A DNA stretch of 64,000 nucleotides from NCBI RefSeq assembly GCF_900104355.1, contig NZ_FNIY01000003.1:310001-374000 (forward strand). The letters are read 5' to 3'. Both the position numbers and the translations under genes were made by a program. The stretch is from Phyllobacterium sp. OV277 (GTDB taxonomy: Bacteria; Pseudomonadota; Alphaproteobacteria; Rhizobiales; Rhizobiaceae). The number at the start of each line of letters is the position of its first letter. The first letter of the stretch is position 1. Of this stretch, positions 8,558 through 30,864 are shown piece after piece. The notes below the pieces were generated by a model. The model worked only from the letters and a program-made list of their open reading frames with translations. It ran no database searches and had not been told where the DNA came from.

Positions 8558-9025
8558 TCAAGCGCTTTCGCGCTCTCCCTGTCTGGAATTGATCTTGTGC
8601 GACCGCCAAACGTCGTCGGTCAGTGTGAATATGATTTCGGCCTCATCCCGGCCCCGGAGGCGGGGAACGCGAACCGATGAAAACCCGAAGCGATCAAGAA
8701 TGCGCTTCATGCGTCTATTCCGCTCTGAAACCCGCAACACGCAAATCTGGCAACCGAGCTGCTGGAATGGGTAATCAAACATGGCCTTGAGTACAGGAGC
8801 CGTCAGCCAGCGGGCATCAAGGGAGGCAGCGGAAAGTTCGATTACACCGGTTTCCGGTGTCCAGTTGTGATAGACGACGCCTGCAAGGAGCTTGTCACCC
8901 TCAACCACGCCCATAGTGACATGATCGGTAAAGCCACGATCACAGCCGGGAATGTGCGAAGCAACGAACCGGGCAATACCTTCGTTGATTTCCGGGCAAT
9001 CCGCCCCGCCCCACGCGATAATCAT
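8558..9025 (-). CDS. GNAT-like acetyltransferase fold protein
   Basis: A 155-aa protein embedded in the tail module, overlapping the stop of the tail hub gene by four bases (ATGA). The pattern GDKLLAGVVYHNW - GVIELSAASLDARW - VLRVSERNRRMKRILDRFGF fits the GCN5-related N-acetyltransferase fold, with RNRRMKRILDRFGF being the usual motif-B helix region. GNAT-like proteins of this size are common in podovirus structural operons, but their substrate is unknown. It might modify a virion protein or only keep the fold. Confidence 0.68.
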   Translation of the reverse strand: MIIAWGGADCPEINEGIARFVASHIPGCDRGFTDHVTMGVVEGDKLLAGVVYHNWTPETGVIELSAASLDARWLTAPVLKAMFDYPFQQLGCQICVLRVSERNRRMKRILDRFGFSSVRVPRLRGRDEAEIIFTLTDDVWRSHKINSRQGERESA

Positions 9026-10632
9026 GCGCTTGCCTCGCCAACCTCGACATGCAGCGCGCCGATATCAATTTCAGCATCAAGGGCATATGCACCGCCTGAA
9101 ACGATGATGCAGCCAAGGGCCAATGTGTCACCGGATGCGCGAACGTTCTGGCGATACCAATAGTCATTCCGGCTCGATACGCCGTCCCATACGGCTTGGT
9201 CCCAAAGGCCCACATCCCATTCCGACGACTGCTGATTGCCGATAGAAACCTCAGAGAAGGCCGGGAGCGTCTTATTCATGTCAGCGCGGGCGAATAGCAG
9301 AACCTTTGGCTTGGCCTTGCCCTTGAGCAGCATACGGGCCATGGCAGCCGTCTTGCGCTGCCCGACGTTGCCACCTGCAAGGAACTGCGACAGATATGCC
9401 GCAGTGAATGGCGCGCCATCGTCGGTTCCGGTCGTGTCCCCCTGCCAAACGTAGCCGCCGACCGAGCCAAAGAACAGACTGCCTTGAAGGGTAGAAAAGC
9501 AGCTCGCATTCCAGTTGGTCAGGATTGACCATCGCCCGGTCAGAACATTGAGAACAAACGTCGTGTCCTGAATGACAACGTTTTTCGGAAACGTGATGAA
9601 AACCAGATTGCGTTCAATCCACTGGGTAATGGTCCAGCCTGTCCCGGTTGCAGCAGCCGCCGCGCGCCATTCGTCCTCAATTGGCCGGCTGACGGAAACA
9701 AGCGAAAGCGACTGTCGATCACGCTGGAAAACCTGCGACATCGGCAGGAAACCATCAGTCGTTGCTATCAGGACATCAGCGCCAGCCCTGATCCACGCAT
9801 TTTTGCCCAGTGGCTTGCCAATCTGGTAGACGCCCTTGAGCGCCCATGTATTCAAATCACTTGGATCAGCGCCGGAATAGATAGCAACTTCGCCCTCAGT
9901 ACTGATAAAGCAGCACATATCATTCAGGCCGTCCCCGCTTTCGATTGACCACGAAAAACCGGTCAGCAGCGAGCCACCCTTTTTCATGACACCGCCAAGG
10001 GGAAACAGCTTCGCCTCACCGCCGATTGAATTCAGCGGAAGATAATAGGCATCCATCGTTGCATTCTTGAGGAAGAACTCACGGTTCTTGAACAGGAAAA
10101 CATAATTGAGCTGATTGCTCGTTGTGCCATCGGTGAACGTGATGGCCGGTGTGGTCACCCAACCCGTTCCATTGTACATCTGGCGAGGATCAGCGCCGTT
10201 GACGCACACCATCATAGACGTGCCTTGGGTGGTGTGCTGCACGACTGTCCAGTTGCCCGATGTTTGACCGCCTAGGCTTGCTGGTGTCGGTACTGGCGGG
10301 GCTGACGGGCTGGTGACTTCGAAAATCCCCGTATCCGTCGCCATGAACATCTTTTCAGCGCCGCCAAAGCGATAGTTGAACGCGCTTCGTACGTTTCCAA
10401 GGCCTGCAAGCAACGCCTTTTTGATGGAACCGCCCCGAATTCTCGCGCCCTTCAATGTTGGAAAGAAGTTGCGCAAGACGCTTGCCGCTCCGGCCTGTTC
10501 TTCCATAAGATCATAGTTGGATACCAAGCCCAGCTTTGGAGCCGGGAACGTGATAGGCGTTCCCGTTGGCTTGCTGCCGACGGAAACGCTACCACGGTTG
10601 GTTTGAGCAATTCGCCCAGGACGAACCATCAT
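9022..10632 (-). CDS. Tail hub / DNA-stabilisation protein (P22 gp10-type)
   Basis: A 536-aa beta-rich protein. It begins with a nucleotide-poor, Pro/Gly-rich N-terminus (FPAPKLGLVSNYDLMEEQAG) and continues with repeated short beta motifs containing Gly-Asn-Trp and Asp-Gly. Size, composition and location immediately after two adaptor genes agree with the beta-propeller hub that plugs the portal in P22-like phages. This assignment is by position and style, not by a matched motif. Start codons ATGATG overlap the preceding stop, so translation is coupled. Confidence 0.6.
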   Translation of the reverse strand: MMVRPGRIAQTNRGSVSVGSKPTGTPITFPAPKLGLVSNYDLMEEQAGAASVLRNFFPTLKGARIRGGSIKKALLAGLGNVRSAFNYRFGGAEKMFMATDTGIFEVTSPSAPPVPTPASLGGQTSGNWTVVQHTTQGTSMMVCVNGADPRQMYNGTGWVTTPAITFTDGTTSNQLNYVFLFKNREFFLKNATMDAYYLPLNSIGGEAKLFPLGGVMKKGGSLLTGFSWSIESGDGLNDMCCFISTEGEVAIYSGADPSDLNTWALKGVYQIGKPLGKNAWIRAGADVLIATTDGFLPMSQVFQRDRQSLSLVSVSRPIEDEWRAAAAATGTGWTITQWIERNLVFITFPKNVVIQDTTFVLNVLTGRWSILTNWNASCFSTLQGSLFFGSVGGYVWQGDTTGTDDGAPFTAAYLSQFLAGGNVGQRKTAAMARMLLKGKAKPKVLLFARADMNKTLPAFSEVSIGNQQSSEWDVGLWDQAVWDGVSSRNDYWYRQNVRASGDTLALGCIIVSGGAYALDAEIDIGALHVEVGEASA

Positions 10633-14675: not shown

Positions 14676-16810
14676 TGTACCGCCCCTATCGATTGTTCGA
14701 ATTCCTGCATGAACTGCTGGGCCTCGTCGCGCTGCTGCTGTTCAAGATGCTTTCCAAGCGCAATGCGCTCCTGAGACGCGATTTTCTCACGCTCGATTGC
14801 AAGCTGGCCTTCCATCCGTTCGCGCTCAAGCTGGGCTTTGCGGGCGTCCTTGCGCTCTTCAAGGTCAAGCTTCTGCCGGTTGAATTCAGTTTCCCGCTGC
14901 ATTTCCAGCTCTTTCAACTGCCTTGCAGCCTCAACCTGGGCTTGTTCGCGTGTAACCGCCGTCTGGCCCTTTGCCTGCTCCAATTCCAGAGCGTTTTTGT
15001 GCTTGGTCTCTTCCGGGTCCGGCTGATTGCGCCGGGCTTCCATGATCTTTTGCAGTTCCGCCTCATCAGGCTTGTTGAAATACAGGCTCACGGTTTTAAG
15101 GCCTGATGCTTCGACCATGCGGGAAAGAGCATTCCAGAGATTGTCGGGCTTCACATAGGGGTTATCGACCGGGCCAAAGTTGGCAAGAAGCTTTTCCTGC
15201 ATGCCCATGACGAACTGCAACGCCATCATGTCACGCTCGCGGGTGCCAGCGCCCAGACCGGTGTTCACGGTCGCATCCATGCTTGCATCCCACGAACGCG
15301 GATCAAACTTCACCCACTTGTCACGCAGGCGCACGGTGCGCGGCTGGTCCTGATGCTGGATCACCAGCCGGAGAACACCCTTGAACACGCGCTGCAAGCC
15401 AAGCGCGAGGTTCTGCAACGTCATGCCCGTCTGGGCGATACCGCCCTGCTCAATCATCGCAGATGCCTTGGCCGTGGTGTTCTGCAGTGCATCCGGGGCC
15501 AGTCCGCTTGAAGCATCTGAAACGCCGGTTCGATCGGTAATCACCTCATCCATATAGCCGAGCATCTGGAAGGATTGAGCGGCAACGAAGGGAACCTGCG
15601 AATAACCAACAGCGGCGCGAACATCGGTGCCAGCGGTTACGCGGATCGGCTCACCGAACTTCGCCTGAGTGACGCTTTCGGGGTTGCTGACACTATCTTC
15701 CTGCACAATCGGCTGTAGGTTGTTCTGCCAGTAGATGTTGTCGAGCGTATTGCGCAGGAGAACAGTCTTGATGCGCTGCACTTCCTCGATATCGTCAGGG
15801 ATGGACCGGCCTTCCCATTGGTGTGGCTCGCGCTCTGCGACCAGATCACCAAAGGGTATCATGTCATCCCATGGCTCATTCTCAAGCATATGGGCTTCAT
15901 CACATCCGCCTGCATAGATAACCCGGCGCAACTCTGCGATGCCATCACCGTCATAATCGACCCGGACAAAGCATTCGGAGACTTCGATTTCATCTATCGA
16001 TGGGTGATGACCCTGCGCACTTGTACCAATGACGCGCTTGCTGTCCTCTTCCTCGTCTTGGTTGTCGAGAATGTCAGCACCGTCAGCAGCAGACAGGGCC
16101 TCAATGACGGATTTCTTGTATCCAGCTGCAATCAGCTCGCCGCGCCGCTTGAGCGTTTTGTGTGTGACAATCGGGCTATCTTCGATAGTCTTGGCGTCGG
16201 GATGAATGAAAAACTCACTCAGAGGAACGCATTCCAGCACAATGCGCTTTTTCTCAACCTCGCGCCGGATTTGCAACGTGTAGAAACCTGTCGCCTGATC
16301 TTGTGTCGCGCCGATAACTTCAACGTCCTTCGCTGACGCCAGTAATTGAGCGGACATTTCATCCAGCCCGTCATGCGTGGTTGTCAGGGTTTCTTTCTTC
16401 TTCTCGACATACCACTTGAGGATGCCGTTGCGCTTCAACAGGGCGTCATGCATGGCATCATAGATCGCCTGTTGTCCGCCGCTTTCAGGCAATACGACGT
16501 AATTCACGTAGTCGGTTGCCTGTTCCGCGCTACCCTCGTCACCTTCTGCAATAGGCGCATATTCGACAATCTTATCGGATCCGAAGAAAACGCGATAAAC
16601 TGACGGCAAGACCTTTTTCATGGTCGAGCGCACGTCCTTGGAAATGGCTCTTGAGCGGCCTTCATCCGAAGGCGTGTCAACCATCTTGCCGTCATAATAC
16701 TGCTGGGCTTTCAGGCGATCCGGCCTACGGTACGAGTTTTCGTAGTTATCGCAATCTTCCAGCAGGCCGCCGACAACACCGGCAAGCTCTTCGTCTGTCA
16801 TTTTGGGCAT
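14672..16810 (-). CDS. Portal protein
   Basis: A 712-aa protein. The N-terminal region (YENSYRRPDRLKAQQYYDGK; VLPSVYRVFFGSDKIVEYAP) and DRTGVSDASSGLAPDALQNT near residue 420 are hallmarks of the large podovirus portal family (P22 gp1-like). Residues about 580-712 form a long charged coiled coil (LELEQAKGQTAVTREQAQVE) that would make the barrel reaching into the head. It builds the dodecameric ring through which DNA is packed. The start overlaps the large terminase stop (TAATG), with AAGGTGG as ribosome-binding site. Confidence 0.88.
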   Translation of the reverse strand: MPKMTDEELAGVVGGLLEDCDNYENSYRRPDRLKAQQYYDGKMVDTPSDEGRSRAISKDVRSTMKKVLPSVYRVFFGSDKIVEYAPIAEGDEGSAEQATDYVNYVVLPESGGQQAIYDAMHDALLKRNGILKWYVEKKKETLTTTHDGLDEMSAQLLASAKDVEVIGATQDQATGFYTLQIRREVEKKRIVLECVPLSEFFIHPDAKTIEDSPIVTHKTLKRRGELIAAGYKKSVIEALSAADGADILDNQDEEEDSKRVIGTSAQGHHPSIDEIEVSECFVRVDYDGDGIAELRRVIYAGGCDEAHMLENEPWDDMIPFGDLVAEREPHQWEGRSIPDDIEEVQRIKTVLLRNTLDNIYWQNNLQPIVQEDSVSNPESVTQAKFGEPIRVTAGTDVRAAVGYSQVPFVAAQSFQMLGYMDEVITDRTGVSDASSGLAPDALQNTTAKASAMIEQGGIAQTGMTLQNLALGLQRVFKGVLRLVIQHQDQPRTVRLRDKWVKFDPRSWDASMDATVNTGLGAGTRERDMMALQFVMGMQEKLLANFGPVDNPYVKPDNLWNALSRMVEASGLKTVSLYFNKPDEAELQKIMEARRNQPDPEETKHKNALELEQAKGQTAVTREQAQVEAARQLKELEMQRETEFNRQKLDLEERKDARKAQLERERMEGQLAIEREKIASQERIALGKHLEQQQRDEAQQFMQEFEQSIGAVQ

Positions 16811-18250
16811 TAGACCACCTTACGCGGTGTGAATTTCCAGTCGTTGGCTGGCTTGTCGATCTTTGCAAACCGCAACATCATGAGCGCATATCGGGACGCT
16901 GAAATAACGTCATCACGCTCTTTGACAATCTTGCCATCCTTACGGTGATACAGTCGGCGCTCTTCCAGCCATTCGATGCAGGTTGAGAACACTTTGAACC
17001 GGCCCGTTTGCATCCGGTCCAGCATATCCATAAGACCGGCCTCGACGCTGTTTGATCCATCTTCGAATGTGGCGCGTTCCGGCAAGGTCTTGAGGCCTTG
17101 AGCCTTATACTGGGAAGCAAGGTTCTCACCTGCTGCCGTGTCGTTATTGCCATCATGTGGCCATGCCCAAGGCAACCAAAGCCCCCAAGGCTTGACGGCT
17201 GCTGCATGGATGACCGGCGTTGCCTGCCGCTTTCGATAATTCCGGGTCAGGTAGACGATATCACTGTCACGATCCCATGCGAGGGAGACAGCAGCAGTCG
17301 GGTGATCCCAGCCAAAATCCAACCCGCCAATTTGCGGCCAGATTGCCGGTATCTTGAACGACTCGACAACAATGTCCTCTTCCAGAACCGGGAAGATCAA
17401 ACCACTGCCGAGCGTGGGAATGCCTTTTGACCGTGCCTCGCGTTCATGCGCTGGGTAGCTTGCAATGATTTTGGCGCGCTGCTCTGGCGTATAGTGGTCC
17501 GCGTCATCAATGGTCATTGACGTGACGTGTCGGGCCTCGTCTCCCAGATCGTCGCTGCCGGGCATGACAAACCTGCTGACTACCGTGGACATGCCGAGCA
17601 GCGGTGTGAATGTCGTCTGGGCAAACTGCCCGCGCTGGCCGTTGTTCGTCCGGGTCAGGCCCTCGCTGTAAATGTCCTCCGGCGGCTCTTCATCGAACCA
17701 TACGCCGTCAACTGTCGGCCCCTGCCACTTCTCGCGGCCCTTCTTCATAGGCCTTGAAGGCGATAACGCTGTCACTGGCCTGTACATCGCCGCCGCCACC
17801 CCAGCGAACCACCACGCTATCAAGCAGGTTCGGCACACCCATGGCGCGGGTGCGGTCCCGTATGCAGTCGGCCGGTATGAAGCCTGTTCCCCAATCTTCC
17901 TCAATAGTGGGCGGACCAATGAGAATGCGTTGCGGGTTGTCTCGTGTACTTTCACCCGTAACTGACCCAGCCCATAGCAGCGGAGCGCGTTCGAACGTTG
18001 CACCCTCCCACCAGTCTGGATAACGTCCCGTCAGATGGATTGCCCATTCAGCGCCACCAGCAACGGTTTTGCCGAGCTGGTTGCCAGCCATAAACAAGCG
18101 TTCGCTATGCGTCAGCCCTGCTTTATGGAAATCGCGCTGCTTCTTGTAGGGCGAATAGAACCGAAGCTTATTAGTGCGCTGTCGGCGTTGTATCTCCGCC
18201 GTCAGCTCCATCCGCTCCATGAGCATCAAGGAAAGGTTTGATTGTTGCAT
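16810..18250 (-). pseudogene. Large terminase subunit, frameshifted
   Basis: Two reading frames together make one large terminase. The first (18250 to 17708) carries the ATPase start with Walker A in FMAGNQLGKTVAG and ends after VIAFKAYEEGP. The second frame (to 16810) resumes with GREKWQGPTVDGVWFDEEPP, which contains the Walker B acidic residues, and continues with the nuclease region (IGGLDFGWDHPTAAVSLAWD; DGNNDTAAGE). The shift is at a run of three C on the plus strand at 17738-17740: removing one base restores AYEEGREKWQG. Either the prophage is packaging-defective or this is a sequencing error in a short homopolymer. Starts at 18250, 18226 or 18211 are possible. Confidence 0.85.
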
Positions 18251-18560
18251 CTAGTTTCCTGATGCGGTCAAGCAACTGCTCGTCCGTCATTTCGCCCATC
18301 TGGTTGACGTTGACATTGAGGTCTTTCGGCATGAGCGATGCCACGACTTTCAGAAAATCTTGCGGACGCTTCTCAATGACTGTGTGAATGACAGCCGGGC
18401 CTTTGCTCTCCCAAGCGGCAAGCAAATCCTCAAGAAATGCCTCACCCAGCTTGTTCCGCGTTCCTTTCGGTCTGCCCGTATTCCCAACCTTGAATTGATG
18501 CTCAACCGGCGGCTTGCCTTTTCCCGTAGATTTCCCGTTTTTTCGGGGTGTATCCACCAT
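18171..18560 (-). CDS. Small terminase-like DNA-binding protein
   Basis: A 129-aa protein preceding and overlapping the large terminase gene. The motif FKVGNTGRPKGTRNKLGEAF is the start of DUF5681-type proteins, found in place of the small terminase in many alphaproteobacterial prophages, where they are thought to recognise phage DNA and present it to the large subunit. The middle is helical, and the C-terminal 30 residues are Asp/Gly/Ala-rich. AAGGG precedes the ATG. This gene opens the minus-strand structural operon. Confidence 0.75.
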   Translation of the reverse strand: MVDTPRKNGKSTGKGKPPVEHQFKVGNTGRPKGTRNKLGEAFLEDLLAAWESKGPAVIHTVIEKRPQDFLKVVASLMPKDLNVNVNQMGEMTDEQLLDRIRKLDATIKPFLDAHGADGADGGDTTPTAH

Positions 18561-18625
18561 TGACGACCCTTGCTTTCTGTAATCCGAATTGGTTGATTGA
18601 GAATCTGACCAAGATGGGGGCTACG

Positions 18626-18856
18626 ATGACTAAATCAGTTGAACCACTTGTGGATTACGCCGAGATTGAATGTACGGTCTACTTTTGGGATACGGATATT
18701 CCGAGTGAGACATTCGCAGGATTTGAAGCGGCTATCGATTATGTAAAAAAGCATCTATCTGCTGCACATCATGCAGACATCCACGTACACACAGCACAAC
18801 TGCCCGAACCGACGTACATAGGAGAAGAACTAAGCCCATTCTTGATCCACGGATGA
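18626..18856 (+). CDS. Small hypothetical protein (cargo island)
   Basis: A 76-aa acidic protein (MTKSVEPLVDYAEIECTVYF...) on the plus strand, divergent from the terminase genes. An alternative ATG lies 4 codons upstream (18614). It has alternating beta-like and helical stretches (ETFAGFEAAIDYVKKHLSAA) and four histidines in a short span (AAHHADIHVH) that could bind metal. No family recognised. It and the zinc-ribbon gene that follows are the left part of a non-structural island between terminase and replication genes. Confidence 0.5.
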   Translation: MTKSVEPLVDYAEIECTVYFWDTDIPSETFAGFEAAIDYVKKHLSAAHHADIHVHTAQLPEPTYIGEELSPFLIHG

Positions 18857-18929: not shown

Positions 18930-19088
18930 ATGCAACAGATGAGTGCCCAAGAAATAGCTCGGAAAAAACCGAATGCCACATGTTGTGATTGTGGACGGGA
19001 AGCCGCAAACAGTGGAACCCAAACTTGGACGATACAGGGTGGAAACTTTCGCTGTAGACCGTGCTCGTTGAATGAGGGGCTTTATTAG
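18930..19088 (+). CDS. Small zinc-ribbon protein (52 aa)
   Basis: A 52-aa ORF, MQQMSAQEIARKKPNATC..., with two Cys pairs: CCDC near residues 18-21 and CRPC near 43-46, separated by 21 residues, in the arrangement of a treble-clef or zinc-ribbon fold. AAAGGA sits 8 bases before the ATG, which supports translation. It ends nine bases before the convergent membrane protein gene. Small zinc-ribbon proteins of phages often bind DNA, RNA polymerase or host regulators, but no specific family is recognised. Confidence 0.6.
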   Translation: MQQMSAQEIARKKPNATCCDCGREAANSGTQTWTIQGGNFRCRPCSLNEGLY

Positions 19089-19096
19089 TTCGACAT

Positions 19097-19636
19097 TCAG
19101 CTATTTGAGAGGTCAGAGCCTTCATACTCTCGCGAAAAGACGATGCTGGCTCGTTTGATCACCATAAGAAGCGTAAGGAAGAAATGACAATACAACGCAA
19201 TTGCCAAGCCAGAACCAATAACCCTGGGCGCGTTAAAAAAGAAAAGGATGAGCGTGATGGTTACAGTTACAACTGAGAGAAGTATTAAGTAGGAGATATT
19301 GTCATTGAGTTCTCTTAGAAGTGCTCTACGGAATGCCTTTTGTTGCTCAAAATCCTTAAGTTTCTTTGGGTCTTCGGGTTTTGCTATAGGGCGAAGCGAT
19401 ACTCCATAAAGCGCCACTTGGACACTCAATAATAATGCGGCAAAAATTGAAAATACAGAAATCGACAGCTCTAATGCTTTCTCTGGCATTTGCCAGCCCA
19501 GGAACACCGACGCAACACCTAAGAAAATTGGCATCACATAAAAAGTCACAATATCCCCAAGGAAAAATTTTCCCTTATCGTCGCACAATGACTTAAGATG
19601 GCAAATTATAATCGATAGCACATTGATCTTTTGCAT
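19097..19636 (-). CDS. Four-helix inner membrane protein, second gene of a RexAB-like pair
   Basis: A 179-aa protein with four strong hydrophobic helices, about residues 29-48, 55-79, 113-133 and 139-159. A charged cytoplasmic loop (KPEDPKKLKDFEQQKAFRRA) lies between helices 2 and 3. It follows the stop of the 302-aa gene directly (TAAGTGATG), so the two are translationally coupled; a GTG three bases upstream is an alternative start. Both genes are visibly AT-richer than their neighbours. Four helices, small size and coupling to a soluble partner resemble lambda RexB, a membrane effector that depolarises the cell in abortive infection. The resemblance is architectural only; no residue-level family match is claimed. 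Confidence 0.62.
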   Translation of the reverse strand: MQKINVLSIIICHLKSLCDDKGKFFLGDIVTFYVMPIFLGVASVFLGWQMPEKALELSISVFSIFAALLLSVQVALYGVSLRPIAKPEDPKKLKDFEQQKAFRRALLRELNDNISYLILLSVVTVTITLILFFFNAPRVIGSGLAIALYCHFFLTLLMVIKRASIVFSREYEGSDLSNS

Positions 19637-19639
19637 CAC

Positions 19640-20548
19640 TTACATCTTTATGCTGGCAAAAAAATCTTCCATCAGACTGTCTACCTCCGCTACAATGCTA
19701 TTCAGAGTCGGATGTCCGCTTTTATCTCTTTTTACATTATCTGAGACGTCTATAAGGCCTGCGTCAATTCCAGATCCGAATATCCCAACAGATCGACGCT
19801 TTTTTCCCATCTTGATGTCGGCTTTAACTCCCTCGTACGTTACACCGTCGAACTCTACGAATCCGCCTTGATCAGATGGGACAAGTTCCTTCAGATCTTT
19901 GTACATGGATATAAACGCGCTTCGCTTATGTGCTCGAACGGTTACTTCATAATCCAATTCATCCATTTTCTTGCCAAGCCAATACTTATCCGCCCGATCG
20001 GACGACTGCTTCGGCTTAAGAAATGTAACCGATTTTACTGGCGCTGTATCCAGAAGAGCAGCCGCCGGTGCAATAACCTTGAATGACAGGTTATGTCCCT
20101 TGAACTTGTCTTGAAAGTCGGCTGACATAGCCGATTGCACAAACTGAACGCATGAACGCCCTTGAAATGATTGAAAAGCCATCAGCGCATAGTTTGTAGA
20201 ACTAGGCATCCAAATTTGAAAATACAGCGGTATCTCCTCAAGGTCGGTTGATTCGCGCTTATACTTTTCTTCCTTTGTAGTTACATCTTTAAGTTTGCTT
20301 TCGAACCCGTGAGTTCCATAATTTATAAAGCCATGGACAGCTCGGAGGGAATTGGAATCTAACCGCTCAAAAAACCACGTTCTAGACTCGGTAGTCTCAA
20401 CAGTGGGTTCCGTCTTGCGGGCTACAAAATCTTCGACATAGTCCAAAAGATCGCACGGCTCACAACCCGGACCAATTTCCAAAGGCTCTTTATCGCCCTT
20501 TTTCCTTATAGAAATACGATAGAAACGCAGCCCAATTGAAAACGTCAT
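19640..20548 (-). CDS. Soluble 302-aa protein, first gene of a RexAB-like pair (candidate defence sensor)
   Basis: A 302-aa soluble protein with no signal peptide or membrane segment and no recognised family. It begins MTFSIGLRFYRISIRKKGDK (a beta strand pair), has a mixed alpha/beta middle with PLYFQIWMPSSTNYALMAFQ, and a basic region near residues 250-258 (KADIKMGKKRRSV), ending GHPTLNSIVAEVDSLMEDFF. The order of elements (short N-terminal beta unit, central barrel-like half, Lys/Arg-rich half, closing helix after a GHP/GHLS-like turn) can be laid beside lambda RexA (279 aa), but this is by eye. Upstream are two direct repeats and a possible TTGTAA-N16-TAAAGT promoter, so the pair could be expressed by the lysogen independently of phage operons. 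Confidence 0.62.
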   Translation of the reverse strand: MTFSIGLRFYRISIRKKGDKEPLEIGPGCEPCDLLDYVEDFVARKTEPTVETTESRTWFFERLDSNSLRAVHGFINYGTHGFESKLKDVTTKEEKYKRESTDLEEIPLYFQIWMPSSTNYALMAFQSFQGRSCVQFVQSAMSADFQDKFKGHNLSFKVIAPAAALLDTAPVKSVTFLKPKQSSDRADKYWLGKKMDELDYEVTVRAHKRSAFISMYKDLKELVPSDQGGFVEFDGVTYEGVKADIKMGKKRRSVGIFGSGIDAGLIDVSDNVKRDKSGHPTLNSIVAEVDSLMEDFFASIKM

Positions 20549-20572: not shown

Positions 20573-20623
20573 AGCTTCACTTTATTTCTTGGCCTTTTAT
20601 TTACAAGATAGCTCCACTTTATT
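20573..20623. repeat. Two direct repeats upstream of the RexAB-like pair
   Basis: AGCTTCACTTTATT (20573-20586) and AGCTCCACTTTATT (20610-20623) match at 13 of 14 bases, 37 bp apart. They lie between the start of the 302-aa gene at 20548 and the early-operon terminator. Spacing near 3.5 helical turns and location over the possible promoter suggest binding sites for a regulator, untested. Confidence 0.45.
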
Positions 20624-20660
20624 ACCAGTTATTTTGTTCACTGGCTCCGTGCTACCCTTG

Positions 20661-20691
20661 GAAAAATAAAACCCGCCTCACTAGGCGGGTT
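20661..20691 (-). terminator. Intrinsic terminator of the early (replication) operon
   Basis: A perfect 9-bp hairpin, AACCCGCCT-CACT-AGGCGGGTT (20670-20691), is followed on the minus strand by a T-rich run (TTTATTTTTCC, 20669-20659). It lies 86 bases after the stop of the last early gene (20777) and insulates the AT-rich pair from early transcription. Confidence 0.85.
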
Positions 20692-20776: not shown

Positions 20777-21265
20777 CTATAGGAATTTAAATTGGTACGC
20801 GCAGTCTCGCAGATCCTGATGCAAGATCGGCGCCATATCTCGCTCTGGAACATCATACTTGCGGGCTATGGCCTTCGTCGTTAAGCCGTGAACGCAATAG
20901 TCCGTCAGACGCGCCGAAACACGCTTTCCAAGTTCGCGCATTGCCTGGCTAAGATCGTCCATTGCAGCAAGCCTGCCATCAGGCATGCCTATCCAGCCGC
21001 CTCCACCGCCCGCGCTCCCAAGATCGGGAGACTTAGCGGCGGCCGTACCTGCACGCTCCCACAAAACGGCATAGTGAGAACCTGCATGATACAACGCCAC
21101 GTTTCCAGACTGGCGTCCGTACCTCCATTCAAATGTTCCGGGCATTGCTCTAACCACTCGCCAGTCAGATCTGCTGACAGAGATACGAACATTCACCTGA
21201 GCAGTTTTTGCCCCATCGAAGCCAGGCTCATTCCGTTTGGTCTTAAGCTTTTTCTTAGCACTCAT
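20777..21265 (-). CDS. Small HTH-containing phage protein, last gene of early operon
   Basis: A 162-aa basic protein. The ATG at 21265 overlaps the previous stop (ATGA) and has AAGGAAAGG before it; 40 further in-frame codons upstream belong to the neighbouring gene's DNA. The C-terminal part, ARLTDYCVHGLTTKAIARKYDVPERDMAPI, has a helix-turn-helix pattern like that in phage late regulators and antitermination (Q-like) proteins. Its place at the end of the early operon, next to the terminator, fits a switch to late expression. The middle is Gly-rich (GSAGGGGGWIG). Confidence 0.55.
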   Translation of the reverse strand: MSAKKKLKTKRNEPGFDGAKTAQVNVRISVSRSDWRVVRAMPGTFEWRYGRQSGNVALYHAGSHYAVLWERAGTAAAKSPDLGSAGGGGGWIGMPDGRLAAMDDLSQAMRELGKRVSARLTDYCVHGLTTKAIARKYDVPERDMAPILHQDLRDCAYQFKFL

Positions 21266-21510
21266 CAGGCTACCTTTCCTTCGATGATGTATTGCTGCCG
21301 AACAACCTGTTTGTTGGGAGTGCGCACCTCGACCCACTTCACGCGCTTTGCCGACAGGATGGAGAAGGAACCGCTGACACAGCATTTCGCCGTCAGCTCG
21401 GCCGCTTCAGGCGTCAAATACAGGTGACCATCCCATCGGCGGCCCATACCGTTGAGGATCAACCAACCGGTTTCAGTGGCGACCATTCCGTTTTGCGAGA
21501 GGGTCTTCAT
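21265..21510 (-). CDS. Small hypothetical early protein
   Basis: An 81-aa protein whose start overlaps the primase-helicase stop (ATGA, preceded by GGAG) and whose stop overlaps the next gene. It has a mixed beta pattern (TGWLILNGMGRRWDGHLYLT; VKWVEVRTPNKQVVRQQYII). Tight packing in the operon supports it as a real gene. Function unknown. Confidence 0.6.
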   Translation of the reverse strand: MKTLSQNGMVATETGWLILNGMGRRWDGHLYLTPEAAELTAKCCVSGSFSILSAKRVKWVEVRTPNKQVVRQQYIIEGKVA

Positions 21511-23057
21511 GCTTGCTCCTGCATTGCCTTCCAGAGCGGTATTTGCCCATGAAGCGAATGATAGGTTTCGGTTGATGGTTCGTAGGCAAGCGTCACGTCA
21601 CCTTTGCGGCCTGTCCATGCGAAGCGGGCCTTGCGGATAAAGACGACAGTTTCGTTATTGTTCGGATCTGGCACATCGATGACGATGCCGTGGTCTGGCT
21701 TGTTGTACCAAGCCGCAGAGCCTTCGATGTCGTACAGCGTTGGCGTCCGGCTACTGCCTTCAGCACCAACGGATTTCGTTGGATGGGCCACAACTATTGC
21801 AAGAACGTTGTACCTTGATGCAAACCGCCGTATCTGGCGAAGAGCCCGATTGACGTATTGGGTTTCACTCTCGTTGCGCGGTCTGGCGTGTTCCACTTCG
21901 TTCCATGGATCAATTAGCAAAACCTTTATGCCATCCCTTGTCACGGCGTCGGCAGCTCGTTCCAACAACCACTCAAGGGTCAGATCATCCTCATTGTCGC
22001 CACTGGGATCGTCATCGATGAAGACAAAATGCTTTTGAATGAAGCCGTCAGCCTCGTCGATCAGGTCTCGATACCATTTATCTGGGGCAGTCTGTGTGAT
22101 GGCCTTGCGCAACTTGGCACGAAGCGCCGGTACGGTTGGGATTTCAAAGGAAGCTACGCAGGTAGTCCAACCGTGCATGCGAGCAAGATTGACACAAAGG
22201 TTCATTGTCCATGTCGATTTGCCATGTCCGGGAATACCGGTGATGACTACCAGCGACCCCAGCCAGAGTTTTACATACTCATCTAGGTCCGGCCAACCTG
22301 TGGTGTAAGTGATCGGGTCGCCTATCTCGGGATAATCGGAAAGTCGGTATAGGCCCTTTACTGGATACGGCTTCGCTGTGTTCAGGCAGAGCGTCACAGC
22401 GTCAACACCGAACTTCATGAGAACATCATTTAGGTCTTTGCAGCCCTCAGGATACCGAACGAAGAAACATCTAGCACTACCTATGCGGCGCACCAATTCT
22501 GCGGCAAGCCGCTGCCCCGGCCCATCGTTGTCAACAGCAAGAACAAAATGCTTGATCTGCTTGATACGGTGCCGGTTGTTATACACGAACTCGAATTTGC
22601 CGTTGGCATCTTCCTCGGGTGGAGTGTCGTCGAGCTCTTCCGGTTCCTTCCCTTTCGGAACGGGTGGAGCACCATCCGGAACTGAAACCGTCAACGGAAA
22701 TCCGCAATCAATCGCTGTCAGCGCATCAAGTTCGCCTTCGGTAATGATCAGACGTTGGCTTCCATCGTGCAACGCTGGATCGTCCAGGGCGTCAGCGTTC
22801 CAGAATGTCTTTTTGCCGTCTTTGAGTTGCCAGAACCTCTTACCGGGTGCTCGATATTTCTCATTCACGCTGACACCGCCGTCGAGGAACGGGAAGACGA
22901 CGATATTGCCATTCTGGTCTGGCACAACAGAGTTGTTGCCGTCAGCGTCGGTGACGCTTTTACCTGTATAAACTCCTAAACGAGATGCGGTTTCCGGGTC
23001 GATTTGCCGACCCTCGAAAGCTAAGATTGCCGTATTCCCCAGAGCGTGAGCTGTCAT
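21507..23057 (-). CDS. TOPRIM primase - DnaB-type helicase (T7 gp4-like, lacking its zinc domain)
   Basis: A 516-aa replication enzyme. Residues about 90-190 hold a TOPRIM primase core (LIITEGELDALTA with the catalytic Glu; HFVLAVDNDGPGQRLA with the metal-binding acidic pair). Residues about 250-500 hold a RecA-like hexameric helicase: Walker A GIPGHGKSTW, Walker B VLLIDPWNEV and a VAHPTKS sensor. T7 gp4-type proteins have an N-terminal zinc finger in the same chain; here it is encoded in another frame just upstream. GGAGGT lies 7 bases before the ATG at 23057, so separate translation is plausible. It should unwind and prime phage DNA. Confidence 0.88.
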   Translation of the reverse strand: MTAHALGNTAILAFEGRQIDPETASRLGVYTGKSVTDADGNNSVVPDQNGNIVVFPFLDGGVSVNEKYRAPGKRFWQLKDGKKTFWNADALDDPALHDGSQRLIITEGELDALTAIDCGFPLTVSVPDGAPPVPKGKEPEELDDTPPEEDANGKFEFVYNNRHRIKQIKHFVLAVDNDGPGQRLAAELVRRIGSARCFFVRYPEGCKDLNDVLMKFGVDAVTLCLNTAKPYPVKGLYRLSDYPEIGDPITYTTGWPDLDEYVKLWLGSLVVITGIPGHGKSTWTMNLCVNLARMHGWTTCVASFEIPTVPALRAKLRKAITQTAPDKWYRDLIDEADGFIQKHFVFIDDDPSGDNEDDLTLEWLLERAADAVTRDGIKVLLIDPWNEVEHARPRNESETQYVNRALRQIRRFASRYNVLAIVVAHPTKSVGAEGSSRTPTLYDIEGSAAWYNKPDHGIVIDVPDPNNNETVVFIRKARFAWTGRKGDVTLAYEPSTETYHSLHGQIPLWKAMQEQA

Positions 23058-23253
23058 ACCACTGACCTCCATGAAATCCGCAGTGATGACAGTTCCAGCG
23101 GATGCCATCCTTGCCGATTTCGACCGACAAGCACGGTTCCTTCTTGTTTTTGCGCGACGGTGAACATTTGGGACAAGTAACCTTTTGATTGCCGGACGTT
23201 ATGCGCCGGATGCAGATGCCTTCGCGGTCCAGGATTTCACTGACGGTTTTCAT
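22960..23253 (-). CDS. Primase zinc-ribbon domain encoded as a separate ORF
   Basis: A 97-aa protein: an N-terminal 25 residues, CPKCSPSRKNKKEPCLSVE, then RWNCHHCGFHGG (Cys pairs near residues 27-30 and 54-57). This is the zinc-binding domain of T7-like primases, which reads the primer start site. The ORF runs 98 bases past the start of the primase-helicase gene in another frame, and its last 35 residues look like out-of-frame coding. Either the ancestral single gene was split by a frameshift near 23,060, or the two are now independent genes: the GGAGGT over the HGG codons is well placed for reinitiation. Confidence 0.72.
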   Translation of the reverse strand: MKTVSEILDREGICIRRITSGNQKVTCPKCSPSRKNKKEPCLSVEIGKDGIRWNCHHCGFHGGQWYDSSRSGEYGNLSFRGSANRPGNRISFRSLYR

Positions 23254-24654: not shown

Positions 24655-25230
24655 ATGAAAACGTCAGATAAAGTAAAAGCCATCCTTAAATCTCGTGGAA
24701 TTCGACAGGCTCAATTCGCCGAAGAGATGGATGTGAGCCAACCGACGGTTGCCCGATGGCTTGCGGGGGCGGACCCCGAACAGTCGCGCCGCCTACAGAT
24801 TGAGGCGATGTACGATCGAGAAGTCGGAATGAGGCCAACCACGGTTCCCGTCATGGGATACCTTGGTGCCGGGGCTGAGGTAATGCCGGATTTCGAACAG
24901 GTGCCGCACGAAGGGCTTGATCAGATTGAAGTGCCGTTTGATATGCCTGATGATATGATTGCTTTTGTAGTACGTGGTGATTCGATGCTGCCCGTCTTTA
25001 AGGACGGTCATGTGGTTGTGGTATACCGCGATCAAAAGAAGCCTCTCGAATCCTTCTATGGGCAAGAAGCAGCAGTTCGAACGACTGACGGTCGTCGGTT
25101 TATAAAAACAGTGATGCGCGGCGCGCCGGGCATCAATTTATTTTCATGGAATGCCGCACCAATTGAAAACGTGAGATTAGATTGGATTGGAGAGATATTC
25201 GCTATCCTCCCTCGCACTTCCCTGCGATAA
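24655..25230 (+). CDS. CI/LexA-type self-cleaving prophage repressor
   Basis: A 191-aa protein with an N-terminal HTH (residues 13-37: GIRQAQFAEEMDVSQPTVARW) and a C-terminal S24 peptidase fold. The cleavage site is probably Ala72-Gly73 (GYLGAGAEV), the nucleophile Ser110 (RGDSMLPVF) and the general base Lys151 (RRFIKTV). Such repressors keep the prophage silent and cut themselves when RecA filaments form, so DNA damage would induce the phage. The gene is divergent from the cro-like gene across three operators. No good ribosome-binding site precedes the ATG. Confidence 0.9.
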   Translation: MKTSDKVKAILKSRGIRQAQFAEEMDVSQPTVARWLAGADPEQSRRLQIEAMYDREVGMRPTTVPVMGYLGAGAEVMPDFEQVPHEGLDQIEVPFDMPDDMIAFVVRGDSMLPVFKDGHVVVVYRDQKKPLESFYGQEAAVRTTDGRRFIKTVMRGAPGINLFSWNAAPIENVRLDWIGEIFAILPRTSLR

Positions 25231-29323: not shown

Positions 29324-29755
29324 ATGGCAAACGTTCCTCCCCCGCACACTTACACCGATGACACGCCACTGAGACTTGATATCGCCGCTCAGATCGCCTT
29401 CCCTGACGGCTCCATCGGGCCACCCGGATTGCGCAAAGAGCGCGATGCAGGACGACTTGAAACGGAAATGATCGCCGGGAAAGAGTATGTCACTCTGTCG
29501 GCCATCGCGAGGATGAGAGAGTTATGTCGCGCAAATCGAAAGGTGCTCATATCTACTGGCGCGACGAAAGCAGGAAAGCCGATGGATCGCTCAGGAACCG
29601 GGCGGGCTGGTTTATCCGAGACGGATCAACGTTCGTCAGCGTTGGCGGCGGCGAGACGGATCGTGGAAATGCTGAAAAAGCCCTCGCAAAATACCTCGCG
29701 GACAAATATGAGCCGTCCAGAGAGCGCGGACGTGATTCCACTAACATCCAAATAG
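29324..29755 (+). CDS. Excisionase-like DNA-binding protein overlapping the integrase out of frame
   Basis: A 143-aa protein starting MANVPPPHTYTDDTPLRLDI. The stretch RLDIAAQIAFPDGSIGPPGL, RKERDAGRLETEMIAGKEYVTLSAIARM is a MerR/Xis-like winged-helix with the usual order of helix, turn and wing. The last 77 codons overlap the integrase start in another frame (29524-29755). The tail is Ser/Thr/Arg-rich. Location just before the integrase supports a recombination directionality role. A shorter, non-overlapping version would lack the basic tail. Confidence 0.65.
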   Translation: MANVPPPHTYTDDTPLRLDIAAQIAFPDGSIGPPGLRKERDAGRLETEMIAGKEYVTLSAIARMRELCRANRKVLISTGATKAGKPMDRSGTGRAGLSETDQRSSALAAARRIVEMLKKPSQNTSRTNMSRPESADVIPLTSK

Positions 29756-30864
29756 CGGATGTCGTTTCGATCTATGTATCCGAAGTTGCGCCAAAACACA
29801 CAAAGCCTCATGAAACGGCGGCGCGGCTCGGAAAAATACTGGATTTCTTCGGAAACAAGACGCTTGATCAAATTAACGGCCAACTCTGCCGAGCCTATGC
29901 GGACTTCCGCCGCGATAAATGGAATGCTGAACAACGGCAGTTTGTGAAGGATTGGAACGCCTCAATCGACGCCGATGAGAAAATGAGCGTCAAGTCCAAA
30001 CGGCAGAGAAAACCGGACTGGGTCGATAAGGATATGACCGCTGGAACCCGGCGACAGCTTGAGGATTTACGGTCCGCCATCAATTATTACAAAGACGAAG
30101 GTTATTCGACCATCGCGCCAACCGTCTGGCTGCCTGAAAAACCGGCTGCCCGTGATCGTTGGCTGACACGACAAGAAGCAGCTTCCCTACTGTGGGCTGC
30201 TTGGCGCATGACGCAGTCCTGGAAGGGTCAGGAATCGAAACGACGGACCGGTCGGCATTTGGCACGTTTCATACTCGTCGCGCTCTATACAGGCACCCGT
30301 AGCGCCGCTATTTGTGCTGCGGCGATCCGCCCTACAGTCGGCACCGGCTATGTGGACTTGGATAGAGGTGTTTTCTATCGCCGGGCGCCCGGCACGAAAC
30401 AAACCAAGAAGCGCCAACCACCAATTCCGATTCCCCGGCGCCTATTGGTTCACCTTCGCCGATGGAGTGATACGCCGGCTGATCTGGGCAAACCAGATGG
30501 CCCGAAGATTTCACAAAGCCACGTTGTCGAGTGGAATGGTAAACCAGTGACAAGCGTCAAGAAGAGCTTTCGTGCTGCGTGCAAAGCTGCGCAGCTCGGT
30601 AGCGATGTGATGCCCCATATTCTGCGCCATACCGCTGCAACATGGTTGATGCAATCTGGTGCCGATGTCTGGCAATCAGCGGGCTTCCTTGGCATGACAG
30701 TGGAAACGCTGATTAACACATATGGCCATCATCATCCTGATCACCTACAGGATGCAGCCAATGCGGTTTCCTCCCCACATAAACCCCACGGAATGACCAG
30801 AATTAAACGTGAACATCAACAATCTAACGTAATAAAAATCCCAGCAAATACACGGGTTTCGTGA
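29524..30864 (+). CDS. int: Tyrosine-type phage integrase
   Basis: A 446-aa recombinase. The catalytic domain has Arg259 (GTRSA), His365-x-x-Arg368 (HILRHT) and the nucleophile Tyr400 (NTYGHH). The usual His/Trp in the LGH motif is replaced (FLGMTVETL). The N-terminal part (residues 1-90) is an arm-binding region and 70-180 the SAM-like core-binding domain. The gene ends 9 bases before the tRNA-Pro fragment, and reads toward it. It carries out integration and, with the excisionase, excision of the phage. Start shown is ATG 29524, inside the excisionase gene. Confidence 0.93.
   Translation: MSRKSKGAHIYWRDESRKADGSLRNRAGWFIRDGSTFVSVGGGETDRGNAEKALAKYLADKYEPSRERGRDSTNIQIADVVSIYVSEVAPKHTKPHETAARLGKILDFFGNKTLDQINGQLCRAYADFRRDKWNAEQRQFVKDWNASIDADEKMSVKSKRQRKPDWVDKDMTAGTRRQLEDLRSAINYYKDEGYSTIAPTVWLPEKPAARDRWLTRQEAASLLWAAWRMTQSWKGQESKRRTGRHLARFILVALYTGTRSAAICAAAIRPTVGTGYVDLDRGVFYRRAPGTKQTKKRQPPIPIPRRLLVHLRRWSDTPADLGKPDGPKISQSHVVEWNGKPVTSVKKSFRAACKAAQLGSDVMPHILRHTAATWLMQSGADVWQSAGFLGMTVETLINTYGHHHPDHLQDAANAVSSPHKPHGMTRIKREHQQSNVIKIPANTRVS

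Follow-up and report, generated by a model that had tools for sequence, protein, structure and literature searches.

A conserved two-gene unit in a Phyllobacterium prophage is a probable distant RexAB-type phage-exclusion module

Rex exclusion is among the oldest puzzles of phage biology. In phage lambda, rexA and rexB (PF15969 and PF15968) follow the repressor gene in the order cI-rexA-rexB, and a soluble protein of ~280–300 aa is encoded ahead of a four-TM protein on one strand. For RexABpp of P. putida prophage P1 (PP_5643/PP_5644), it is reported that both proteins are needed for protection, that RexApp binds DNA non-specifically, and that, when it is overproduced, growth stops in a RexBpp-dependent way; membranes leak in a subpopulation of the cells and no depolarisation is seen, and binding between RexApp and RexBpp was not shown by two-hybrid tests (PMC12894663). 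Two-gene prophage defence with one soluble and one membrane protein is also found in Sbash (gp30/31), CarolAnn (gp44/43) and Butters (gp30/31), of which Sbash gp30 and CarolAnn gp44 are described as dimerising and binding DNA (PMC11077077). Only five RexAB-like systems were counted in 2026 (PMC12894663). Here we describe a gene pair, A and B, that shares this anatomy; among the matches listed in a search of open-licence papers there was none on this family.

The pair lies in a 64,000-nt stretch of the genome of Phyllobacterium sp. OV277, referred to here as the window, and the coordinates of its features are collected in Table 1. Genes A and B abut on the minus strand, with the junction sequence TAAGTGATG; the codon after the GTG start of B is itself an ATG, from which a protein of 179 aa would be made. 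The G+C content of A and B together is 43.2%, against 53.1% in window positions 1-30864, where only 0.8% of 1,452-nt windows (those overlapping the pair included) are equally low. Two small plus-strand ORFs, 18548-18856 and 18930-19088, fall in the same A+T-rich stretch, and the second carries a CxxC...CxxC pattern that, read by eye, resembles a small zinc-binding protein.

Comparison with PHROG profiles placed the pair among prophage genes, namely an integrase, a CI-like repressor, an anti-repressor, a primase/helicase, a terminase large subunit, a portal and a major head protein, with A and B as cargo between the replication and packaging genes. The same prophage is present in IMG/VR as a 37.6-kb viral contig. 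The early gene adjoining the pair (20777-21385, minus strand, 202 aa) had no PHROG match at 0.001. A prophage of the same genus that has no A (G003) was compared as a possible empty site; its terminase and portal DNA is 81% alike up to position 18551, with no further match in the 12 kb compared, and the position of the pair is therefore variable. A clean insertion was rejected, as a mosaic junction was seen instead; the blastn match, to the related prophage L085, ends at 18551, within the gene at 18171..18560. The terminase large subunit of the window (16810-18250, minus strand) is apparently split in two frames, with ORFs at 17708-18250 and 16810-18003, and in L085 it is one 490-aa frame (8686-10155); either the prophage of the window has a packaging defect or an error in the sequence may account for the split.

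Both 32-nt direct repeats sit between a terminator-like hairpin and gene A. Terminator-like sites in the scanned region numbered 3, with 3.4 expected by chance; because this count is not above chance, the terminator rests on its perfect stem and its position. The core of the repeats, AAAGTGRAGCT, is confined within the window to the two copies. No link between the repeats and the repressor was therefore found, and CI operators were rejected as their identity. A promoter scan gave 3 matches where 3.9 would be expected by chance, and the region upstream of A had none. An earlier note, made from the letters alone, had described a directly coupled, AT-rich gene pair in a prophage, preceded by direct repeats and a possible promoter and insulated from the early operon by a terminator. 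The coupling (with exact coordinates), the composition, the prophage and the repeats all held, the last as two copies 72% alike. Of the terminator, the hairpin stands where it had been placed, between the early operon and A, in a region whose number of such sites is that of chance; the promoter was not supported.

Table 1. Features of the A/B locus and its prophage (positions in the window)
Feature	Coordinates	Strand	Description
Gene B	19639..19097	minus	GTG start, 180 aa, four-TM; effector candidate
A/B junction, coupled	19634..19642	minus	Reads TAA-GTG-ATG, no gap
Gene A	20548..19640	minus	ATG start, 302 aa, soluble; RexA/RdgC-like fold predicted; sensor candidate
Upstream direct repeat, copy 1	20573..20604		32 nt; possible operator
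Upstream direct repeat, copy 2	20610..20641		32 nt; 72% of copy 1
Terminator-like hairpin	20691..20670	minus	Perfect 9-bp stem, 4-nt loop, T-rich tail; follows the early operon upstream
Prophage primase/helicase	21507..23108	minus	Upstream early operon; phrog_239, 2.8e-78
Gene directly before terminase large subunit	18171..18560	minus	phrog_8771 (function unknown); putative small-terminase position
CI-like repressor	24655..25230	plus	phrog_4, transcriptional repressor, 2.8e-19
Integrase	29524..30864	plus	phrog_1, integrase, 1.8e-32

Neither protein of the window had a Pfam or NCBIfam match above cut-off. The matches obtained were to PHROGs of unknown function, phrog_15676 for A (1.1e-5) and phrog_15250 for B (1.6e-14); the former was also matched by 38 members of a diverse set of 49 A proteins that includes the one in the window. 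Only the window's A, among these 49, gave a weak PADLOC match, to PDC-S15 (0.007 over 68 residues), which was discarded, as were Flavi_NS4A for B (0.0043, below cut-off) and four Pfam families each touched by one of the 49 at 0.0069-0.099. One of the 49 touches a tape-measure PHROG at 0.0065. The soluble protein had been noted as belonging to no recognised family, and it remains in that state; no match of A or B to a family of phage structural proteins reached a usable score. The predicted pI of A is 6.3, slightly acidic, and the median of 64 relatives is 8.4.

For B, hydropathy analysis gave four peaks and the AlphaFold model (pLDDT 92.6) four long helices, bearing out the four-helix membrane protein first read from its sequence; from the distribution of charge, both its ends are predicted to be cytoplasmic. 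At 180 aa, B is longer than lambda RexB (144 aa) and has no detectable similarity to it. The Pfam RexB family (PF15968) was not among the matches of B up to E 10, with a RexB control at 8.5e-92, and alignment of B with RexB by hhalign scored 15.3, inside the range of 40 shuffles (maximum 23.5). When the residues named in RexBpp mutants were used as a fingerprint, in place of the full RexABpp sequence, the best of the B relatives examined had 3 of 7; none of the relatives that came out of the protein search, the viral scans and the genome samples taken around G081 and G1073 carried the RexBpp residues.

The sequence of A gave a similar picture: no member of the set of 49 matched Pfam RexA (PF15969) at E 0.1, with lambda RexA as control at 1e-97, and phmmer and hmmsearch of A against PDB sequences returned nothing usable. 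Narrower A profiles gave little or nothing and no RexA match, and the widest reached a probability of 25.7% against RexA, a moderate signal over the RexA dimerisation domain. With neither of the curated Pfam models, RexA or RexB, matched, A and B are not filed in those families. Comparison of structures, which the earlier note had proposed as a check, placed RexA first, with members of the RexA/RdgC/Iml3 fold filling ranks 1-6; the model of A agrees with the RexA fold, which combines a split globular domain with a dimerisation domain. A is thus predicted to have the RexA fold, at an rmsd of 12.9 Å when superposed on RexA. Other proteins of RdgC or Iml3-Chl4 fold act in recombination and at the kinetochore, unlike the role proposed for A, and to our knowledge none has a coupled membrane gene.

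At E <= 0.001 the protein database gave 65 matches to A and 80 to B (the window's own counted in both). Those with names were all 'hypothetical' bar one in the list for B, the organisms named were mostly alphaproteobacteria, and contigs of several identical lengths turn up for A and for B alike; a second search, with a profile of 18 A relatives, gave 50 proteins, the named ones mostly from Pseudomonas with a few other Gammaproteobacteria. One scan of a species-genome collection gave 17 A loci, all alphaproteobacterial (some MAGs less exactly classified). Whole-genome searches found A in 1 of 20 genomes of the genus, namely that of the window; the larger samples, drawn from the phylum and from the class, had it in 7 of 398 and in 3 of 385 genomes, again with the window's genome included. 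The equivalent searches around G081 and G1073, which from their named close homologues appear to be Pseudomonadaceae, gave 1/25, 7/398 and 8/398; the samples overlap. With such low hit rates, the pair is widespread but rare. A further 18 A loci came from viral contigs, and among GenBank phages a relative was found in two Pf filamentous phages, with A copies identical to each other. Profiles built without Pf sequences recovered the Pf proteins at 5.7e-24 for A and 2.2e-24 for B; no match came from GenBank phages with the window's A itself as query, from plasmids searched for A, or from viral sequences scanned with only the Pf protein. The actinobacterial Sbash, CarolAnn and Butters pairs differ in host from the named A/B relatives, which are from Alpha- and Gammaproteobacteria, and are likened to them by description, not by sequence.

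When copies belonging to the window and duplicate records of one locus (L003, L025, L034, L093-L097) were set aside, 56 A loci remained; clustered by A at 95% identity, they make 47 groups. In 54 of the 56 loci B adjoins A and is encoded on the same strand (in L050 the contig stops within B), which speaks against a chance pairing. The two loci without B are L014, where the contig ends, and L024 (7971-8544) of Magnetospirillum molischianum, in which A is split over two frames and no B is nearby. Lambda rexA and rexB are 15 nt apart, whereas genes of the A/B family abut or overlap, by 4 nt in 38 of the 54 pairs (with the start of B chosen by pattern). In the reverse direction, 298 genomes from the family of G081 were searched for B; 5 had it, all of them A-positive and all at the A locus; two more A-positive genomes from the A search were absent from the rows of the B search and were maybe not sampled. 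A and B are thus one conserved, closely coupled unit, and the question of whether the pair stays together at unrelated sites, left as a check by the earlier note, has a positive answer.

The unit occurs in tailed prophages, in the two Pf phages and at chromosomal sites. By-eye reading of ORFs indicated that L010 and L012 resemble prophages, with the pair in L012 again between replication and packaging genes, that the pair adjoins resolvase- or integrase-like ORFs in L018, L021 and L022, and that it is near transposase-like ORFs in L008 and L011. An RNA-gene scan of 8 loci located a tRNA gene within ~95 bp after B in L013 (9532-9604) and L015 (9506-9579), and an SRP RNA gene ~110 bp before A in L016 (7781-7879). 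No prophage was recognisable in the ORFs surrounding these three; tRNA and SRP RNA genes are common integration sites. In Pf phages PfAC16 (L001, 412-1883) and OQ658363 (L002, 2524-3995) of Pseudomonas aeruginosa, A-B stands at one end beside a repressor gene and is annotated as hypothetical. The defence entry for PfAC16 is 'TA; PfsE' only; the pair is not in that defence table, and the word 'RexA' is absent from the main text (PMC11878078).

Ten same-strand ORFs upstream of the pair, picked by eye from 7 viral loci, were scanned against Pfam. As in the lambda order, an HTH/CI-type repressor gene above cut-off precedes the pair in four of the seven prophage loci (L035, with Phage_CI_repr at 8e-15, L037, L046 and L051); such domains were below cut-off in L043 and L045 and were not found in L044. 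This neighbourhood would suit a pair that mainly tunes the lysis/lysogeny switch of its own prophage, with A binding DNA, B restraining A and exclusion a by-product, and for lambda, RexA is reported to bias the CI/Cro switch and RexB to antagonise it, with the suggestion that exclusion may be incidental (Adams 2024, PMC11077077). We consider this unlikely: unlike in lambda, the window's pair lies ~4 kb from the CI repressor, on the opposite strand, several relatives stand beside the tRNA, SRP RNA, resolvase, integrase or transposase genes listed above (the last three by eye), and RexABpp is reported to have had no effect on its repressor promoter (PMC12894663).

The explanation we favour is that A/B is a distant RexAB-type phage-exclusion (abortive-infection) module carried as prophage cargo, to which we assign a probability of roughly 70%. 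The earlier note had reached a RexAB reading from layout and sizes, and it is supported by the predicted RexA fold, the conservation of the pair, the lack of any usable match to a phage structural family and the repressor-type gene upstream in four of the seven scanned prophage loci. Counting against it are the missing Pfam RexA match, the low probability of the one profile match to RexA, a B unlike RexB, the large rmsd, the distant repressor, the undetected promoter and the slightly acidic pI of A. Under attack by another virus, a cell carrying such a pair would probably be shut down. By analogy with lambda Rex and RexABpp, A would dimerise in the manner of RexA/RdgC, clamp DNA and recognise the replicating DNA, or a DNA-protein complex, of an infecting phage; it would then switch on B in the inner membrane, and B would impair the membrane so that growth stops before the invader matures. 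Least certain among these steps is the sensing of DNA, because exclusion by lambda RexA mutants is reported not to have followed their DNA binding (Adams 2024, PMC11077077).

The assignment of A as sensor and B as effector leans on RexABpp from P. putida. These roles may be reversed, with an antiviral A that B holds at the membrane until infection frees it, as the discussion in PMC12894663 describes for Butters gp30/gp31, and gene order and coupling are equally compatible with this. The only counterpoint is that the membrane protein is the effector in P. putida, CarolAnn and Sbash (PMC12894663, as above); our measurements fit both arrangements, and we regard the reversed one as improbable.

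It is very unlikely that A/B is some other membrane defence pair instead of a Rex type, for example Kiwa, whose KwaA is a membrane protein and KwaB soluble, and whose proteins are similar to A and B in size and composition. PADLOC includes Kiwa models, and the kwaA-kwaB order, with the membrane gene first, is the reverse of A-B. No usable match to PADLOC or Pfam was obtained for A, B or the 49 A members, and RexA heads the structural list among the families in it. The Pf phage study lists Kiwa for another Pf phage and reports it as found by PADLOC (PMC11878078). A small coupled operon in mobile elements could also be a toxin-antitoxin pair, or another module that benefits the host and has nothing to do with defence against phages. 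We think this hardly probable: a repressor gene precedes the pair in some prophages, as for lysogenic exclusion genes, and we know of no antitoxin that the predicted RexA/RdgC fold resembles.

What is new here is a scattered, uncatalogued family of A/B pairs; what is known is the RexAB type, which they resemble as far as anatomy shows. Dozens of distinct pairs occur in Alpha- and Gammaproteobacteria, Pseudomonas aeruginosa Pf phages included, and that of the window is without Pfam, NCBIfam or PADLOC assignment, which suggests that defence catalogues under-count Rex-type pairs. More tentatively, and with slightly more doubt than belief, we propose that they are part of a large superfamily across Pseudomonadota, so far uncatalogued, of immune modules built from two genes, in which an RdgC-fold DNA clamp that senses infection is wired to a four-helix membrane effector. 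Such modules would travel among tailed prophages, filamentous phages, integrative elements and tRNA/SRP-RNA sites, with lambda RexAB as an outlier instead of the type and with exclusion, not tuning of the switch, as the ancestral function. The A/B family offers natural variation in sensor and effector with which to seek the Rex trigger and to test Rex pairs as true immunity.
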